Assembly: GCA_016841825.1 (NCBI GenBank)
Contig: JAENYK010000001.1
Location: forward strand, 496,001-560,000
DNA: 64,000 nt
Origin: Halothermothrix sp.
GTDB taxonomy: Bacteria > Bacillota > Halanaerobiia > DY22613
Reading direction: 5' to 3'
The first letter of the stretch is position 1; the number at the start of each line of letters is the position of its first letter. The position numbers and the translations under genes are program-made. A model generated the notes under the pieces. The model did no database searches, was not told the origin of the DNA, and saw only the letters and a program-made list of their open reading frames with translations. Below are positions 52,076 to 64,000 of this stretch, in pieces.

Positions 52076-53746
52076 CTAAAATGTGTCAAATTTAGTTTTC
52101 CCTAACTCATTAGATATATTATTGATATATATCAACATTTTTCTAAAAGAATCTATAATTGGTTCATTATAGCTTAAATAATTGTGATTAAAGGTTGCTT
52201 TAATACCTTCGAAGCTTGTTTCACTCCAACCATCCTCAGCCAAATCTAAAATCTGCATGAAAAAATTATATATCTCATCCCTAGCAGCAGCTAAATATCT
52301 ATCTACTTTATCTTCAAAAGGTATAATTGTTTCATTTATCTCTTTAAATTTTCCAAGATATTTCCGTTCAAGTTTTCGCAATATAATATTTTTTTTATAT
52401 TCAATATAATTTATCATATTAGATAAATACTGAAGTTTTACGTTATTTAGAGTTAATATTTTTTCATAAATCGTTTGTACCTTCGAATCACAAAAATCAT
52501 AATGATAAACCTTATAATGTTGATAACCTTCCCGTACCAATCCATCTGTTATTACCTGTCTAGTTAGATTAGAACCAGGGTAAAGTGCAACCTTAGAAAA
52601 CAAATGTATTATTTTAAAAAAATTAATATTTTTAAGGAAAATTGCATTATTTCTTAATTCATTTACAGTTGAGTATGGGTGATAAGTAACAAACCCTGAT
52701 GGAGTAACATCTATCCTCAGCTCACGTAAAAAATTAATTGCTTCATAACTTTGATTTAATTTAATGCCTTTTTTATAGACCTCCAAACCTGAAGTACTTC
52801 CAGCCTCCAAACCCATCTCTACCTGCACTAATCCAATCTCGCGAAGAGTTTTTACTAATTTTTGATTATCCATAATTGAATCTACTCGTGTCAAAATATA
52901 GAAGAAGCACTCTATGTTTCTTTGTTCCATTTCACTAATAAAATTCTGAACCCAATCTATCCCTCTTGGCGATGAATTAATAAAATTTAAATCACATAGA
53001 TTTATTGTATCGTGAATATTTTTGTTTTTCCCATATCTATTAATTAAATATTCAATTTCATCAACAATTTTTTTAGGAGAACGACACCTCCATTTACTTC
53101 CTCCACCTAAAGAAAAAAAACTATTAGCATTGCAAAAACTACAAGTACCTAAACAACCTCTCGAGCAAAGGACATTTAATGTTGCTTTAATATTATTTTG
53201 TATTCCTTTTTCTAAACTAATATGAACTGGTTCTTTAATAGAATCTATATCTACGATGGCTTCTCTATCGGGATTTTTAATAATTGAATCGCCTGAACGA
53301 TAATAAACCCCCTTTACTAAGATGGGTTCTATAGATTTTTCAATATTGTTCACTAATTCAACAATTGTCTGCTCTCCTTCTCCTCTTACAACTGCATAGA
53401 TTTCTGGTGAATCTTTTAAAATCTTTTCAGCAGCAAATGTAGCATGTTCTCCTCCAAAAATTAATTTTATAGATGTGTCATAGTAATATAATGCCTTAGC
53501 AATAGATAATGCAGATGAAAAATTCGAATAAACTGCTGATAATCCAATAATATCATATTTCCCTTTTTTCAATTTTTCGACCACCACTTTATCTTCCAAA
53601 CCTAACATATGAGCATCAATGATATGAACATCGTGGGAAGCTTCTTTTAAAGCTCCTCCGATATAAGCTAAACCTAAGTGTTCATCCCCAGTATAAAATC
53701 CCAAAGATAGTTCCTCTATTTTAGGATAGACCAATGCTACCTTCAT
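52076..53746 (-). CDS. B12-binding-type radical SAM protein (second of a pair)
   Basis: This 556-residue protein has an N-terminal cobalamin-binding-like Rossmann domain: LGLAYIGGALKEASHDVHII, DAHMLGLE (a DxHxxG motif) and KLIFGGEHATFAAEKIL. The radical SAM core has VLCSRGCLGTCSFCNANSFF (CxxxCxxC) and VQVEMGLEAGSTSGLEVYKK. The C-terminal ~180 residues are helical, rich in Lys/Ile and unlike known domains. AAAGGGG precedes the ATG. It is the last gene of the peptide-rSAM-MFS-rSAM locus and is paralogous to 55009-56550. It likely methylates or otherwise modifies an unactivated carbon; the substrate may be the upstream 28-residue peptide. Confidence 0.85.
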   Translation of the reverse strand: MKVALVYPKIEELSLGFYTGDEHLGLAYIGGALKEASHDVHIIDAHMLGLEDKVVVEKLKKGKYDIIGLSAVYSNFSSALSIAKALYYYDTSIKLIFGGEHATFAAEKILKDSPEIYAVVRGEGEQTIVELVNNIEKSIEPILVKGVYYRSGDSIIKNPDREAIVDIDSIKEPVHISLEKGIQNNIKATLNVLCSRGCLGTCSFCNANSFFSLGGGSKWRCRSPKKIVDEIEYLINRYGKNKNIHDTINLCDLNFINSSPRGIDWVQNFISEMEQRNIECFFYILTRVDSIMDNQKLVKTLREIGLVQVEMGLEAGSTSGLEVYKKGIKLNQSYEAINFLRELRIDVTPSGFVTYHPYSTVNELRNNAIFLKNINFFKIIHLFSKVALYPGSNLTRQVITDGLVREGYQHYKVYHYDFCDSKVQTIYEKILTLNNVKLQYLSNMINYIEYKKNIILRKLERKYLGKFKEINETIIPFEDKVDRYLAAARDEIYNFFMQILDLAEDGWSETSFEGIKATFNHNYLSYNEPIIDSFRKMLIYINNISNELGKTKFDTF

Positions 53747-53772
53747 AAATTATCAACCCCTTTAAATTCAAC

Positions 53773-54969
53773 TTAATGATTATATTTTATACTAATTAAT
53801 AAAATTGCTGCCAATGCAATAAAAACAGAACCAGCAATCAAAAATATTAAATTATAATAATTTAAGCCTATTAATATTCCTCCAAGATAGGTGCTCAAGG
53901 AATCTCCAAGATTAAAACTTGTATTCATAAAACCTGAAGATGTCCCATGGTTTTCTGGCTCAATGTTTTCAAAGATATAATTTTGAAAAAGTGGATTTAC
54001 CAAATTCATTAATCCACTGATTAATACTATTAAAACTATATGTAGTAATGTTAAATTCCATACTATCATCAAAGCGTAAGCAACTGCAATAATAAAAAAT
54101 CCTACTACAATTATTTTCTCTAGAGAAAACTTCTTTACCAACAAAGAACCAGAAAAAGCCATAATTGCAGAAAAAATTTGAATCATTGACATTAATACAC
54201 CAATATATAAAGCGTTTATCATCAACCTTTTTGCAAAATATAAATTTACATAAGGGGACAAAATAACGGTAAAACCTAATAAAAAAAATGTCAAAATTAA
54301 AAAAGAATAAACCATTATATTTTCTTTTTTAAATAAATCCATATACCAACTTTGGTCCATTTCTCTCTTCTTTTTAGTTTTCTTGCCAAAAACATATTCT
54401 TTCTCCTCAATATAGAACAGAGGTATAACTGAGATAATATAAAATAGTCCAGCAAAAATTAAACCTGTCCTATATATTTGACTGACCAGATTAATCCTAG
54501 CTAAATAGCCACCTAGAATTGAACCTAAAGTTAAAGAAGCTAAACCAATTGCTTTTGCAGTACTAAATAGAGCTGATCTCTGCTCATTTGCACCATACTG
54601 CATTAAAAATGGCCCAGATATACACATCAAAGCGGAAAAACTCAATCCATATAGTATTGCTAAACAAATTAATCCTACTTGATCTACAACGAAACTTTCT
54701 AAAAGAAAAGTCATTCCAGCCAACAACCCAGAGATTATTAAAATTTTTTTCTTTGAAAATCTGTCTATCAAAACACCTACAGGAATACTTCCGGCCGCCA
54801 TAGCTAAATTTCCAACAGCCAGAAAAAGACCTAAGAATTTTTCCGAGATACCCACATTTATTATGTATAGGTTAAATAAAACAAGAAATATTCCTAAAGC
54901 AATATTCATTAAAATCTTTGAAAAAAAATAAAAATTGATATTACGATTAAAATTAAGTATTTTAAACAT
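53773..54969 (-). CDS. MFS transporter between two radical SAM genes
   Basis: This 398-residue protein has 12 hydrophobic segments. The loop GVLIDRFSKKKILI is the MFS A-motif (GxLaDrxGrkk-type); LQSxY-like FQNYIFENIEPENHGTSSGF lies in the C-terminal half. AAGGAG precedes the ATG. Its tight location between two radical SAM genes (26 and 39 bp) suggests that it exports the pathway product or gives self-protection. Confidence 0.88.
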   Translation of the reverse strand: MFKILNFNRNINFYFFSKILMNIALGIFLVLFNLYIINVGISEKFLGLFLAVGNLAMAAGSIPVGVLIDRFSKKKILIISGLLAGMTFLLESFVVDQVGLICLAILYGLSFSALMCISGPFLMQYGANEQRSALFSTAKAIGLASLTLGSILGGYLARINLVSQIYRTGLIFAGLFYIISVIPLFYIEEKEYVFGKKTKKKREMDQSWYMDLFKKENIMVYSFLILTFFLLGFTVILSPYVNLYFAKRLMINALYIGVLMSMIQIFSAIMAFSGSLLVKKFSLEKIIVVGFFIIAVAYALMIVWNLTLLHIVLIVLISGLMNLVNPLFQNYIFENIEPENHGTSSGFMNTSFNLGDSLSTYLGGILIGLNYYNLIFLIAGSVFIALAAILLISIKYNH

Positions 54970-55008
54970 CCATCTTGTCTCCTTTTCAAAATATTAAATT
55001 ATACTATC

Positions 55009-56550
55009 CTATTGATCTAGCTGTCGAAAGACATCTCTTATTTTATTAATAAATATTTCTCTTTGTATACATAAAGTCGAAAGTTTGTTTTTATCGACTT
55101 TATCAATAACTTGAATTGCATAATCATACGTAGCTTTGTTGATAACTCTAAAGCTAAGATTAAATCTTTGCTTATAAGTTTCTAGTACTAAAAGCTTATT
55201 ACTTTCAATCTCTTTACTCTTTGTTTTAAAATATTTATTAATACCAGAAACAAAACCTAGATATTTTTGAACAACAGGTTCCGCTACTATTTTCATATAT
55301 TCTTCATAAATTATCCCAACTTTTTTATCAACGAATTTATATCCATTTGGATATGGATTAAGAATGTTTATGTTTCCATCCTTAATTAATCTATGCTCCA
55401 TCATACTTCCTGGAAAAATTTCCAATTTTTGACTTAGTCTACCTAATAGATTTTGTCCAAGGTCATAATAAAATTTCAAATTTTCTTTTAACTCTGAAAT
55501 TACTATATATGGATTAAACAAAATAAAACCACATGTCGGATCAATCAAATCGTGTTTCGTTAATAATTTATAGATATCATAGTTTTGCTTAACACTAACT
55601 TTCTTGTTATAAATTTCAAGAGTAGTTTCAGTTCCACTTTCCAATCCAATAAAGACATCAATTAGTCCTGCTTTTTTCAATAAAACAATGATTTCTTCAT
55701 CCGCTAATGTTAAACTGTTAGCACGCAAGTTTATTTTGAAATTAATCTGTAATTTTCTTCTTAATACTTCAGTTGCGAAATCCCGAGCTCTTTCTTTACT
55801 TTCGAAAGTTGGTATAATGAAAATATCATCATTAAAGTTAAAATAACTTAAATTGTAATTATTAATAATTAACTCAATTTCTTCAATAATACTTTTAACA
55901 GTTCTACTTCTCCAACGAGGATTAAACATTGGAGTACTGCAGAATGAACATTTACCAATACACCCTCTACTTGATGAAATACATGCAATTGCAAATGAAT
56001 GCTTTTTTAATTGTTCTTCAAGAACATCTCTCGCTGGGAAGGGCAAATTATTAATATCTGGCATTGATCTAGCTTTATTTTTAATAATTCTATCTTTTTC
56101 TTTAATCCACATACCTTTACACCCTATTAAAGTTTGATTTGATGAAAGACAATTAAGAAGTTCTACCAACGTTTCTTCTCCTTCACCACGGCAAACAAAA
56201 TCTATTACATCTATTTGAAGTAATTTTTCCGCTAAAAAGTGGGCATGATGACCTCCCAATAAAACTCGAATATTTGGATTGGAGACTTTTAATTTTTTTG
56301 CCATAGAAATTACTTTATCAATTATTGAATAAGTTGTAGTAAAACCAACTACATTCGGTCTAAAGTCTTTAACTTTAGTAAAAATTGCATCTATGGATAA
56401 ATTTTGTGCATCCCCATCTAACAATAAAGTTTCATAACCAGCTTTTCTTGCACTTGCAGCAAGATAAGCTAATCCAATATGCTCACTATAATGAATGTCA
56501 TATGTCTCATCTTCCGGCATATTTAATAAAGCAAGTCTCATCTTTTGCAT
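55009..56550 (-). CDS. B12-binding-type radical SAM protein (first of a pair)
   Basis: This 513-residue protein has a B12-binding-like N-terminus (IGLAYLAASARKAGYETLLL, DGDAQNLS where the DxHxxG His is absent, VLLGGHHAHFLAEKLL) and a radical SAM core with ISSSRGCIGKCSFCSTPMFN (CxxxCxxC) and VFIGLESGTETTLEIYNKKV. A helical C-terminal region of about 150 residues follows. GGGAGG precedes the ATG. It starts about 70 bp after the 28-residue gene, behind a terminator-like hairpin. It shares layout with 52076-53746 but is only moderately similar by eye. Confidence 0.85.
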   Translation of the reverse strand: MQKMRLALLNMPEDETYDIHYSEHIGLAYLAASARKAGYETLLLDGDAQNLSIDAIFTKVKDFRPNVVGFTTTYSIIDKVISMAKKLKVSNPNIRVLLGGHHAHFLAEKLLQIDVIDFVCRGEGEETLVELLNCLSSNQTLIGCKGMWIKEKDRIIKNKARSMPDINNLPFPARDVLEEQLKKHSFAIACISSSRGCIGKCSFCSTPMFNPRWRSRTVKSIIEEIELIINNYNLSYFNFNDDIFIIPTFESKERARDFATEVLRRKLQINFKINLRANSLTLADEEIIVLLKKAGLIDVFIGLESGTETTLEIYNKKVSVKQNYDIYKLLTKHDLIDPTCGFILFNPYIVISELKENLKFYYDLGQNLLGRLSQKLEIFPGSMMEHRLIKDGNINILNPYPNGYKFVDKKVGIIYEEYMKIVAEPVVQKYLGFVSGINKYFKTKSKEIESNKLLVLETYKQRFNLSFRVINKATYDYAIQVIDKVDKNKLSTLCIQREIFINKIRDVFRQLDQ

Positions 56551-58923: not shown

Positions 58924-59801
58924 CTAAATTACCTCCTCTCCTACCATCTTTAAATATGCTTCTTCCAGATTAGGTATTATTTCGGTAAAGTTTTTACCAG
59001 GCTTATCTTTGGACAAAATCCGTAGATAGTGATGTTCCTTTTCCACAATATTTGAAGTTATTTTGCATTTCTGTGACAAATCCATGTATTGATCCATTGT
59101 CACAGTACCACTCCATACAAAACCTTTAGATTGCTCCAATAAATCTTTAATCGCACCATTAAAAATAATTTGACCTTTTTTTATAATAGCTAAACGACTA
59201 CTAATATTCTCCACATCCGCAACAATATGTGTAGACAAAATAATCGCCCTATCGGTTGCTAAAGAGGATAAAAAGTTTCGAAATCTAATTCTTTCTTCAG
59301 GATCTAAACCTGCTGTAGGCTCATCAACAATAAGTATTTTCGGATCATTTAGTAAAGTAATGGCAATCCTAAACGCTGTCTCATACCACCAGATAAAGTT
59401 GATACTTTAACATACTTTTTTTCTTGTAAACCGACAACGTTCAAAAGCCTTTCAATCAAAGCAGTTCTTCTTTTAAAATCTTGATGCCCCCTGAGCTGAG
59501 CAAAATAATCCAATTCCTCAGCTACTTTCAATGAAGGGTATAATCCGAATTCTTGCGGCAAATAGTTGATAATATGTCTAACCTTTTCAATATTTTGCTT
59601 ACTATCTAAAGATATTCCATCCACCAAAATTTGACCACTCGTTGGTGCAAGTAAGCCAACCAGCATTTTCATCATTGTAGTCTTTCCTGCACCATTTGGT
59701 CCTAATAGAGCAAAAACTCCTGTGCCAATCTCCAGGTTTAAATCTTGAATCGCAGTAACCTGTCCAAATCTTTTTGTTACATTTCTCAAACTAATATTCA
59801 C
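58924..59801 (-). pseudogene. ABC transporter ATP-binding protein with a frameshift
   Basis: The N-terminal ORF (59349-59801) has Walker A LLGPNGAGKTTMMKMLVGLL and signature LSGGMRQRLG, then shifts frame after RLG. The other frame continues IAITLLNDPKILIVDEPTAG (Walker B), LSTHIVADVENISSRLAI (H-loop) and ends at 58924. Loss of a single base at GGAATT, now GGATT, explains it. The joined product of about 292 residues would be an ordinary exporter ATPase for the downstream permease. Either the gene is recently dead or the base was mis-called. Confidence 0.82.
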
Positions 59802-60471: not shown

Positions 60472-60500
60472 TTGCTTAGAATCAATTATCATGGTATAAT
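60472..60500 (+). promoter_or_regulatory. Promoter of the TPR-peptide pair
   Basis: TTGCTT (60472-60477) and TATAAT (60495-60500) are separated by 17 bp on the plus strand, about 90 bp before the TPR start codon. Confidence 0.7.
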
Positions 60501-60592
60501 TAAGAAGTATCTAATAAATTGGTTATAATTACATCTTTAGGAATTAATAATAAATGTTAATCATGACTACTTATTAGGGAGGATGTGAGTTA

Positions 60593-61526
60593 ATGGATGA
60601 AAATTTAGCATTATCAGCAGAAATTTATTATCAAGATGCAATCAATTCACTCAAAGAAAAGGATTTAGTCAGTTAATGTGGGAAGTGCCAGAATTTTGGC
60701 TAATGGTGATAACGATTTGTTATCAAAAATAGCTTTTTTAAAAGCTAGAGGACTTTATCTACTTCAAGAGTATGATAAAGCACTGTCTGCTATTGACAAA
60801 GCTATGAAATCTAATCAAGGTGCTGATGTAATTAGGTTACAGAAATATCGTGGATTAATTTGGGGGTATCAGGGGAGATTTGCAGAAGCGATTAATTTAT
60901 TCTCTGATTTGCTAGAAGAAACAAATGATTATATTTTACTCACTGAGTTGTATAGCAATATCACCTGGGCAAATTTAGCTTTGTACAGAACAGAGGAAAA
61001 AAATAAACTTTTAGAGGAAGCAAAAAAATATTTAGATTTACTTGATGACAACAGAAAAAAAAGAATATTGTTAAACTATGGTGAATATCATTTTTGTAAT
61101 AAAGATTATAATCAAGCGATAGAAATCATCGAACGTGCTATTCCGTATTGTACCGAAGAAGAGATGCCTTTAGTTTATAACAACTTGGCTGAATTACATT
61201 TCCAGTTTGGTGATAGGTTCAAAACTGAGGAATACTTACATAAGGCAGAAGTTCTTGCTGAAAAATACAGTAATTATTTAGAGGTTGCAAAATCCCTATA
61301 TACACAGGGGTTATTAGAAATTAAAGACGATGAATGGTTAAAGGCTACCGATTCATTATATGTATCACTAAAATATTTTATTAAAACCAATGCTATATCC
61401 TACGCTTTCAATTGCTTTATTCAAATTCTAGATATATCTCACCAATTAGAAAATGATTGTGTGCTTTCTATCAAAAGAAGTGCTAAAGACTTTTTCTCCG
61501 AAACACCTTTTTACAATAAAATGTAA
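60593..61526 (+). CDS. TPR-repeat protein (Rap-like), with an apparent frameshift
   Basis: GGGAGG precedes ATG at 60593 (MDENLALSAEIYYQDAINSL), but this frame stops at 60676. From 60678 a second frame continues for 282 residues of TPR-like helices: LKARGLYLLQEYDKALSAID, YRGLIWGYQGRFAEAINLFS, LLNYGEYHFCNKDYNQAIEI, VYNNLAELHFQFGDRFKTEE and LYTQGLLEIKDDEWLKATDS. A +1 shift would join the two at SNVGSARILANG. No HTH is visible, so it resembles Rap more than PlcR/NprR-type sensors. A secreted-looking 48-residue ORF follows 21 bp later. It is the only rightward operon in this part. Confidence 0.72.
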
Positions 61527-61547
61527 TATATATTAGGGGGGATTATT

Positions 61548-61694
61548 GTGAAAAAAGTATTTTGTTTTTTGTTGATGACTTTGATTTTTGTCGAAGGAAC
61601 CTTCATGATTTTAACTGATCAACCTTCTGCTGTGCCTAATGTTTCTGGAGAGATTTATACGACAAATAATTGGCCCGATCCGGATGAAAATTAA
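61548..61694 (+). CDS. 48-residue secreted peptide precursor (Phr-like)
   Basis: GGGGGGA lies before GTG at 61548. The product has a basic start and a hydrophobic signal-like segment (MKKVFCFLLMTLIFVEGTFM), then ILTDQPSAVPNVSGEIYTTN and an acidic tail NWPDPDEN. It follows a TPR gene by 21 bp and is closed by a strong terminator, as with phr genes after rap genes. The mature peptide would come from the C-terminal part. Family unknown. Confidence 0.68.
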   Translation: MKKVFCFLLMTLIFVEGTFMILTDQPSAVPNVSGEIYTTNNWPDPDEN

Positions 61695-61715
61695 TTTATC
61701 TACATTTTAAAAACA

Positions 61716-61770
61716 AAAGTAAAGCGTTTTTGAAACCTACAAAATATTCCAAAACGCTTTACTTTATTTT
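61716..61770 (+). terminator. Terminator of the TPR-peptide operon
   Basis: AAAGTAAAGCGTTTT (61716-61730) and AAAACGCTTTACTTT (61751-61765) form a perfect 15-bp stem followed by ATTTTTAAT, 21 bp after the peptide stop. Confidence 0.82.
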
Positions 61771-61855
61771 TAATTATAATACTCCGTTTTCATAGCACTG
61801 CCCAAACCCAATAAACACGTATCCTTTTCAAAAACAGAGTGACTCAAACTACCCT

Positions 61856-62650
61856 CTACCCTCCCTGAGCAGAATACTTCTTATTTCCCACACTCCACAC
61901 CAGTACCATCACACCAACCATACCGACAACCCACACAAACTGCTTACCCAATTCTGCATACAGCAGACTCCCACTCAACTTACCCTGCAAAATAGACACC
62001 GGAACATAATAGATATACTGAAAAGGGAGATTCTCAGCTATAACTCGCAAAAACCCCGGAAATAGGGCAATGGGGAATATCTGTCCAGATAGAACTCTAA
62101 TCACATTCCACAAATTATCACGCAAGGTTAGAATATTCTCAACCCAGAAAGTCAATGACCCAACATAGAAAAACAATGCATACATAATCACCATACCAAA
62201 AAAGGCAGATAGTACACTGAGTACTATTCTCAGCACACTCAATTTGATGGTTATTGGAATAATTAATCCGAAAACACTTAAAAAAATGAATCCGGCGGCA
62301 AATCCCCAGATAAAATAGCCTATCTTAGTAAAAAAACCATATAAGGGATAGTACAATGGTTTAGACAAATATAGATTCAAACGTCCTTGATTAATATCTG
62401 ACCATACCTCATAAGCAGTAATTCCCACCGGCATTATAGCACTCTCGAATATCTTGAGTAGAAAATAATAAGAAACCATATCATTGAATGTATAGTTAGC
62501 AATAGCTGCCTTGCTTTGAAAGACGAATTTCCAGATGAAGTAAATAATCAATAATTGGAGTGGTAGATTAACCAATTGCCCAACAAAATTCAAACTATAT
62601 TCCTTCCCTTTCCTCAATTCAATCCAGATTAACCGTAAATATTTCTTCAT
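61856..62650 (-). CDS. ABC-2 family permease (DUF990-like exporter, subunit 2)
   Basis: This 264-residue protein has six hydrophobic segments and the pattern of ABC2_membrane_6 (DUF990-type) permeases: NFVGQLVNLPLQLLIIYFIW, SDINQGRLNLYLSKPLYYPL, FYVGSLTFWVENILTLRDNL and GQIFPIALFPGFLRVIAENL. It pairs with the preceding permease. Its last codons are duplicated at 56985-57110. GGAGG precedes the ATG, 2 bp after the partner gene. Confidence 0.85.
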   Translation of the reverse strand: MKKYLRLIWIELRKGKEYSLNFVGQLVNLPLQLLIIYFIWKFVFQSKAAIANYTFNDMVSYYFLLKIFESAIMPVGITAYEVWSDINQGRLNLYLSKPLYYPLYGFFTKIGYFIWGFAAGFIFLSVFGLIIPITIKLSVLRIVLSVLSAFFGMVIMYALFFYVGSLTFWVENILTLRDNLWNVIRVLSGQIFPIALFPGFLRVIAENLPFQYIYYVPVSILQGKLSGSLLYAELGKQFVWVVGMVGVMVLVWSVGNKKYSAQGG

Positions 62651-62652
62651 TT

Positions 62653-63447
62653 TTATCCTCCATTCGCCTCATACCGTGTTAATCCCATATTCCAGGTCAG
62701 TTTAAACAGATAAAGTACTATCGCCGAAAACACAATGAATTTTAGTACAAAGTCCAACTTCAAACTATCTTTGTTCAGGAAAATCACCGCTGGATAATAT
62801 GAAATAAAGGCTACAGGTATAATGTAAGTTAACACCAGCTTAATTTTTTCGGGAAATATTGATAGTGGATATTGTTTACTATCAGCTAATCCAAATATTA
62901 GCGAACGAAAGACTTCTATCTGTCCTACCCAAAAAGCTAAAAATGTAACAATCCCATATAAACAGTTATAGATGAACACACCCCAAACCAAAATAATTAA
63001 CGAATATAAGACATTCATCGCATTAATTGAGATATCATACCGCAGAACAATAGTTACGATAAGAACTATACTGACGATCAACTCCTCAATAAAGTAAATA
63101 ATTGAGACCCTTTCAAAAAGCACTGCAAAAAGCGTATTAATTGGCCGAACCAGAAATTTGTCAAGACCACCCTGTACTATGGTATATGGCAGATCACGAA
63201 AACCAAAGAATATTCCCCCAATACTTTCCCCCACAAAAGTAATACCTGTATATAGAGCTAATTCTGGAAAACTCCAATCCCCAAAAGATTGAATATGACT
63301 CAACAACGTGTACCAAAATATCAGAACAAAAGAAAAATTAAATATTAAATGCACCAAAGTCATCACAAATTCAAAGTTAAAAGTCTTTATCTTATGCCAG
63401 GAAATAATCATAAACCGATAAAGCAGTTTCGAATAATATTTAACCAT
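62653..63447 (-). CDS. ABC-2 family permease (DUF990-like exporter, subunit 1)
   Basis: This 264-residue protein has six hydrophobic segments with LALYTGITFVGESIGGIFFG, YTIVQGGLDKFLVRPINTLF (the conserved DxxL.RP loop) and FLAFWVGQIEVFRSLIFGLA. GAGGAGG decides the ATG at 63447; the longer frame lies in the ATPase gene. It forms a heteromeric exporter with the neighbour and the ATPase 63440-64000. The substrate is unknown. Confidence 0.85.
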   Translation of the reverse strand: MVKYYSKLLYRFMIISWHKIKTFNFEFVMTLVHLIFNFSFVLIFWYTLLSHIQSFGDWSFPELALYTGITFVGESIGGIFFGFRDLPYTIVQGGLDKFLVRPINTLFAVLFERVSIIYFIEELIVSIVLIVTIVLRYDISINAMNVLYSLIILVWGVFIYNCLYGIVTFLAFWVGQIEVFRSLIFGLADSKQYPLSIFPEKIKLVLTYIIPVAFISYYPAVIFLNKDSLKLDFVLKFIVFSAIVLYLFKLTWNMGLTRYEANGG

Positions 63448-64000
63448 TGGAAACCTCCTCTTTATCAGGTTTCTCATACATATCTCGAATTATCTCTTCT
63501 AAACTAAGGTAATTAATATTTATATCAAAAATCTCATTCCGATTTAACAAATTATTTATTGTAGTTGTGAGCTTGTCTATAGGAACTTTGATCAATGACT
63601 CAAACTTATTTGAGGATAGAGACATAGCATAATTTCGGGGAATGATTTTGCTTATATCAAAATCTTCGTGATGTTTGACCTGAATGATCTTATATTTGTC
63701 TCTACTTTCGATCTGATCTAAATTCCCATCATAACAAACTCTACCTTTATCCAGGATTATGATTCGCTTACATAATCTATCTATATCATTTAGATCATGA
63801 GTTGTCAAAAATATTGTTGTATTTAATTCAGTGTTAAGAAAAGTTAAAAAATCTAATATTTTTTGTTTCGCTATTATATCCAGACCCAATGTTGGTTCAT
63901 CTAAAAATAAAATTTTCGGATTATGTAATAAAGAAGCAACGAATTCACAACGCATTCTCTGACCTAAAGATAACTTTCTAACCGGAATTTTTAAAAGTGA
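63440..64000 (-). CDS. ABC transporter ATP-binding protein, C-terminal part
   Basis: The frame is open to the right edge. It enters with PVRKLSLGQRMRCEFVASLL (signature LSLGQRMR), then KILFLDEPTLGLDIIAKQKI (Walker B) and FLTTHDLNDIDRLCKRIIIL (H-loop), and ends with a regulatory tail EEIIRDMYEKP. LSLGQ in place of LSGGQ is usual in ATPases of DUF990-type exporters. It overlaps the permease start by 8 nt. The Walker A region lies outside the window. Confidence 0.88.
   Translation of the reverse strand, partial: SLLKIPVRKLSLGQRMRCEFVASLLHNPKILFLDEPTLGLDIIAKQKILDFLTFLNTELNTTIFLTTHDLNDIDRLCKRIIILDKGRVCYDGNLDQIESRDKYKIIQVKHHEDFDISKIIPRNYAMSLSSNKFESLIKVPIDKLTTTINNLLNRNEIFDININYLSLEEIIRDMYEKPDKEEVSNG

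Follow-up and report, generated by a model that had tools for sequence, protein, structure and literature searches.

The window, by which we mean the whole stretch of 64,000 nucleotides that was analysed, carries on its plus strand a gene for a tetratricopeptide-repeat (TPR) protein, hereafter the receptor, directly followed by a small open reading frame (ORF) and a hairpin. The pair is surrounded by minus-strand ABC-transporter genes and consists of the following features:

60593–60676, plus strand: N-terminal part of the TPR receptor gene, 27 codons from an ATG, the frame being closed by the TAA at 60674–60676
60678–61526, plus strand: main frame of the TPR receptor, 282 aa from a GTG, with Pfam TPR matches and 46% identity to the relative L025
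61548–61694, plus strand: putative secreted propeptide, 48 aa, GTG start, with a hydrophobic signal-like N-terminus and an acidic Pro/Asp tail
61717–61765 (ends approximate), plus strand: perfect 15-bp inverted repeat, terminator-like, which could serve both strands

The closest relative of the window receptor, L025, comes from the sister-genus genome G001, a single contig of 3,557,532 bases; the genome of the window is referred to as G000. The class of these genomes looks like Halanaerobiia, and G001 is presumably Anoxybacter fermentans. The first 27 codons correspond to residues 1–27 of L025 (13 of 27 identical, E 2e-5), and the main frame, read in another frame, aligns to residues 32–321 with 8 gap columns. 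Since the two stretches of L025 are matched in different frames, the receptor gene, intact in relatives, is judged from the sequence to be broken in the window copy, with the lesion lying between the two stretches. A sequence-only reading of this DNA had described a TPR-only protein, and this description stands as regards the TPR matches of the main frame (TPR_12, 4e-10; TPR_2, 4e-9) and the absence of a helix-turn-helix (HTH) domain, but not as regards a single ORF. By Pfam no fused HTH was found in the window protein or its family, TPR and other helical-repeat families being matched instead, and RNPP_C scored 18.8 bits on the window protein, under its cut-off of 26.5 bits. A profile search of PDB sequences gave 131 matches, the 60 listed among them being general TPR and other helical-repeat proteins. 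A single-sequence structure model of the TPR protein had a pLDDT of 56.5, too low for a reliable count of the TPRs, and a Foldseek search with it returned 897 matches at E≤10, one of them (LGN) at E≤0.001. Because RapF, RapH, RappLS20 and NprR appeared intermixed with unrelated TPR proteins and the model was too poor, this search had no discriminating power.

The 48-residue ORF was found just as the earlier reading had put it, with a GTG start 21 nt past the TPR stop, a hydrophobic N-terminus and an acidic tail. It is provided with a G-rich ribosome site and ends in ...TTNNWPDPDEN; by eye, its hydrophobic stretch ends in ILT/D, as against an A-x-A-like site in most sisters. The 15-bp terminator that had been proposed was likewise borne out: folding of 61695–61775 gave −20.1 kcal/mol (z −7.4), a value reached by none of 200 shuffles, though a strict terminator scan with a loop limit of 3–8 returned 0 sites. 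A proposed promoter was not substantiated, as a scan found 10 promoter-like sites where shuffled sequences had 8.0 ± 2.9, which is the level of chance. No separate HTH gene lies beside the window pair. In its surroundings, the adjoining ABC-transporter ATPase gene is also split, into minus-strand ORFs at 58924–59238 and 59349–59801. ABC2_membrane_6 permease pairs adjoin a receptor-peptide pair at two loci (window 61856–64000 and L073:2854–5439), and since their orientation relative to the pair differs between these loci, the neighbourhood may be a coincidence. Two radical SAM-like proteins flanking a major-facilitator-like transporter were recognized by eye on the minus strand at 52076–56550 of the window; for Anoxybacter fermentans, eight radical SAM sactipeptide clusters have been reported (PMC10931772).

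With 24 matches of the window TPR protein in its own genome, the receptor belongs to a large family. At E≤1e-15 the family profile had 29 matches in G000 and 9 in G001, these genomes belonging to one family and to different genera, and the unbroken members in G000 (n = 15) measure 302–333 aa. This first-branch profile had no match at E≤1e-15 in the other 57 of 59 class genomes, at E≤1e-25 the family had none in the other 396 of 398 phylum genomes, and further scans of genome contigs found no relatives. The profile of a second, more distant TPR branch gave 28 matches in G000 and 13 in G001, some of them common to the first profile, and two of the other 57 class genomes had one match each. The statement that the pair stands alone on the plus strand thus holds locally, amid the ABC-transporter genes, but not for the genome, in which the TPR family has more than 20 genes. 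As sister cassettes adjoin genes of unrelated kinds and the window receptor frame is broken, the suggestion that the pair might control the transporter or radical SAM genes near it found no support. A phage or plasmid origin was rejected, the window protein having no plasmid match, L025 no phage match and alignment A4 no match in viral contigs. Near the L008 pair, L069:5342–6963 contains a repeated FNPRTRVGCD-type reading, and the adjacent ORFs resemble Cas2 and Cas1 by eye.

Small ORFs beside TPR genes were counted by a rule that called for 35–75 codons, a start −12 to +60 nt from the stop of the preceding gene, a ribosome site, a basic start and a hydrophobic core, the Sec signal of precursors being called by hydropathy and basic start; the window precursor is positive by this rule. 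A small signal-like ORF was detected after 19 of 28 core TPR genes, the window included, versus 5 of 478 other ORFs (Fisher p 1.9e-23), these controls being ORFs of at least 90 aa from the window and from regions picked around TPR/HTH genes, and not a random sample. Four of the five control positives themselves belong to TPR or HTH-TPR modules: two come after TPR proteins so divergent that the profile misses them, and two are flanked by a small HTH gene on one side and a TPR gene on the other. The downstream small ORF is missing after 9 of the 28 core genes, and among the more distant TPR genes only 3 of 19 were positive. When 500 bp on both sides and both strands of 50 TPR-hit ORFs were scanned, 26 distinct small ORFs were obtained, of which 26 lay on the receptor strand and 0 on the opposite one; 23 were downstream of the receptor and 3 upstream (L135, L136, L138). 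The search for small ORFs beside homologues, which the sequence-only reading had suggested as a check, therefore supports an RRNPP-like pair, as the small secreted-type ORF recurs beside homologues and always on the same strand.

Over 380 aligned codons from the 10 closest peptide pairs, 164, 111 and 211 differences fell on codon positions 1, 2 and 3, a substitution pattern characteristic of protein-coding sequence. Distances among receptors and among their peptides were correlated (Mantel r 0.34, p 0.004, 19 pairs, full-length and partial receptors being mixed, with those of the window, L007, L017 and L020 partial), and the tails alone gave r 0.23 (p 0.008). The main fork of the receptor tree separates two groups (support 91/80 and 89/99), each of which contains peptide-bearing receptors from both genomes. 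On contig C14 of G000 (L065:6718–11854), only the first of five tandem TPR receptor genes is followed by a peptide gene, and the remaining four, which are among the nine core genes lacking the small ORF, form one tree group (support 95/98). As peptide-bearing receptors of both genomes stand astride the main fork and the orphans group together, the simplest reading of the tree would be that the pairing predates the split of the two genera and was lost in the tandem array; the orphan receptors of this array might possibly listen to other peptides.

The precursor tails come in two flavours. In one, D-P-x-x-x-P-G/D directly follows the signal stretch (L009, L010, L012, L020), and in the other a C-terminal G/N-P or W-P is followed by acids, as in the window (NNWPDPDEN), L002 (SNWPGFSED), L003 (GPWPDPDTDG), L029 (NGPLPIADED) and L120 (NGPTWPGDS). 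Repeats occur within the precursors of L137 (GPIQKPV/GPIQRPV) and L017 (PHPEPGN/PYPEPGN), and at L030 a single receptor is backed by two similar precursors. Multi-peptide precursors, several similar precursors per receptor and receptors without a peptide have been reported as RRNPPA features (PMC9765709).

Proteins with a double HTH (Pfam HTH_3; about 175 aa) gave 12 matches in G000 and 17 in G001. For eight of these 29, one of the 38 matches of the TPR family profile is found no more than 1 kb away, about 0.4 being expected (the eight were counted by eye from coordinates, and the expected 0.38 was obtained with a rough formula), and six of the eight are arranged tail-to-tail with the TPR gene. 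Other double-HTH genes adjoin more distant TPR genes (L117, L122, L124, L126), and several members are far from any TPR gene, some of their contexts being common to both genomes (L113/L123; L114/L125). At L135:3076–4663 and L136:3208–4659 a small HTH gene, a secreted-type peptide gene and a TPR gene follow each other on one strand, an order that may correspond to an HTH-TPR receptor divided among the genes of an operon-like unit. Near double-HTH and TPR genes of G001 a protein of about 90–120 aa with a Y-Y-L...N-G start recurs (L079:4745–5107, L080:7906–8178, L122:4549–4821, L126:7961–8242), the two members scanned having no significant Pfam match; at some loci it is accompanied by a 69-aa HTH protein.

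Both genomes encode Omp85 and LpxC, the latter stop-interrupted in G001, and on this ground the host cells likely possess an outer membrane with LPS. Anoxybacter has been placed in the Halanaerobiales, which are described as having LPS outer membranes (PMC5007114). Our literature search returned no paper joining RRNPP with diderm or with Halanaerobi-, and none joining RRNPP, separate gene, HTH and TPR.

Among known systems, an HTH-less "subfamily 17 of Anoxybacter fermentans" has been placed by Moi et al. (2025) beside Rap in a nine-TPR clan of candidate RRNPP receptors (PMC12700828), the subfamilies having been drawn from the RRNPP_detector set (PMC12700828; PMC10075063). The signature used by RRNPP_detector is a receptor of 250–500 aa with a propeptide of 10–100 aa at −60 to 400 bp and a Sec signal (PMC10075063); the main frame of the window receptor, with 282 aa and TPR matches, falls within this range, though its frame is broken, and so does the propeptide, with 48 aa at 21 bp. 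Subfamily 17 likewise combines an HTH-less TPR receptor with an adjacent propeptide in the same host group, the likeness of the receptors being drawn from their description. The present family is very probably subfamily 17, so that systems of its kind have already been published as predictions. The paper treats the family as gram-positive, and in the sections consulted separate HTH genes and an expansion in a second genus are not mentioned. The separate double-HTH genes by many receptors, the very large expansion and the host with an outer membrane, as indicated by LpxC and Omp85, are unreported in the literature searched. With Rap-Phr of Bacillus the family has in common that an HTH-less TPR receptor gene precedes a gene for a propeptide, here putatively of Sec type, that a genome has many copies and that some receptors have no peptide, but it differs in lacking the RapH_N three-helix domain, its receptors measuring 302–333 aa. 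RapH_N (PF18801) was found in neither G000 nor G001, while the Bacillus subtilis control was positive, which rules out canonical Rap identity; of the Rap-Phr-like pair named in the earlier reading, the RRNPP-like part remains and Rap does not. NprR, QssR and other HTH-bearing RRNPP receptors share the TPR receptor with a small propeptide gene, but their DNA-binding domain lies within the receptor, whereas here a separate double-HTH gene adjoins the receptor in a subset of cases. The window pair appears to be a damaged representative of a large family restricted to one lineage, and the sequence-only reading had named its class correctly.

In our view the pair is, with good probability, a cassette of an RRNPP-type peptide-signalling family with an HTH-less receptor. 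The downstream gene would give a precursor of 40–60 residues exported by Sec, from which the Pro/Asp-rich C-terminal tail would be released as the signal. The mature peptide would return to the cytoplasm via an Opp-type oligopeptide ABC transporter, and genes for Opp-type binding proteins (SBP_bac_5) are present, with 11 matches in G000 and 9 in G001. Pairing and co-inheritance suggest that the receptor from the preceding gene would bind it with its TPR superhelix. As the receptor has no DNA-binding domain, it would have to release or capture a partner, which by analogy to Rap could be a response regulator or, at loci that have one, the double-HTH repressor-like protein encoded next door. Spo0A_C gave one match in each genome.

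That the window pair itself is a dead remnant without present function, whatever the family does, has nearly an even chance of being correct. The receptor frame is broken after 27 codons, with the 8 gap columns against L025, and the neighbouring ABC ATPase gene is also in two pieces; on the other hand, the precursor ORF has remained intact along with its ribosome site and terminator, its peptide might still serve a sister receptor, and in a draft of 43 contigs the break could be a sequencing error. The broken frame together with a precursor devoid of an A-x-A-like site indicates that the window copy is probably decaying, and we expect it to have a residual role at most, its peptide perhaps still acting on the receptor of a sister cassette. 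A different explanation, which we find unlikely, is that the small ORF encodes an uncleaved single-helix membrane peptide that tethers or controls the TPR protein, no extracellular signal being involved. Every counted precursor does have one hydrophobic helix after a basic start, a feature selected for by the rule, and the window copy lacks the canonical cleavage residue, but A-x-A-like sites with D/G/N-P tails behind them are seen in most sisters, the basic N-terminus should put the tail outside, away from a cytoplasmic TPR protein, and the repeated tail motifs of L137 and L017 suit signal precursors better. Highly improbable is a RiPP- or bacteriocin-like precursor for which the TPR protein would provide immunity or a scaffold and the nearby radical SAM genes the modification, as these genes, the one feature in its favour, lie about 4 kb off on the opposite strand, the sister-cassette neighbours listed (judged by eye from the first 110 residues of each) include no radical SAM protein, and typical modifiable Cys/Ser-rich cores were not seen.

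If the peptide-signalling cassette is the right explanation, the roughly 20 diverging receptor-peptide pairs in one genome would form a natural series for the co-evolution of receptor and signal specificity. Further work is merited by the outer-membrane context of the family and by its separate HTH genes. Beyond the cassette itself, we tentatively put forward, as a rather doubtful extension, a split RRNPP system in a diderm Firmicute, in which receptor and double-HTH DNA-binding partner would be separate, their genes tail-to-tail or in the same operon, and the peptide may stay in the periplasm and serve as a private or contact-limited timer and not as a population signal. Separate HTH genes beside HTH-less receptors, if truly partners, would offer a route from Rap-like receptors to DNA without a fused domain. 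RRNPP systems have been described for single-membrane gram-positive cells, and with LpxC and Omp85 encoded in these genomes, a peptide signal across or inside an outer membrane becomes a testable question.
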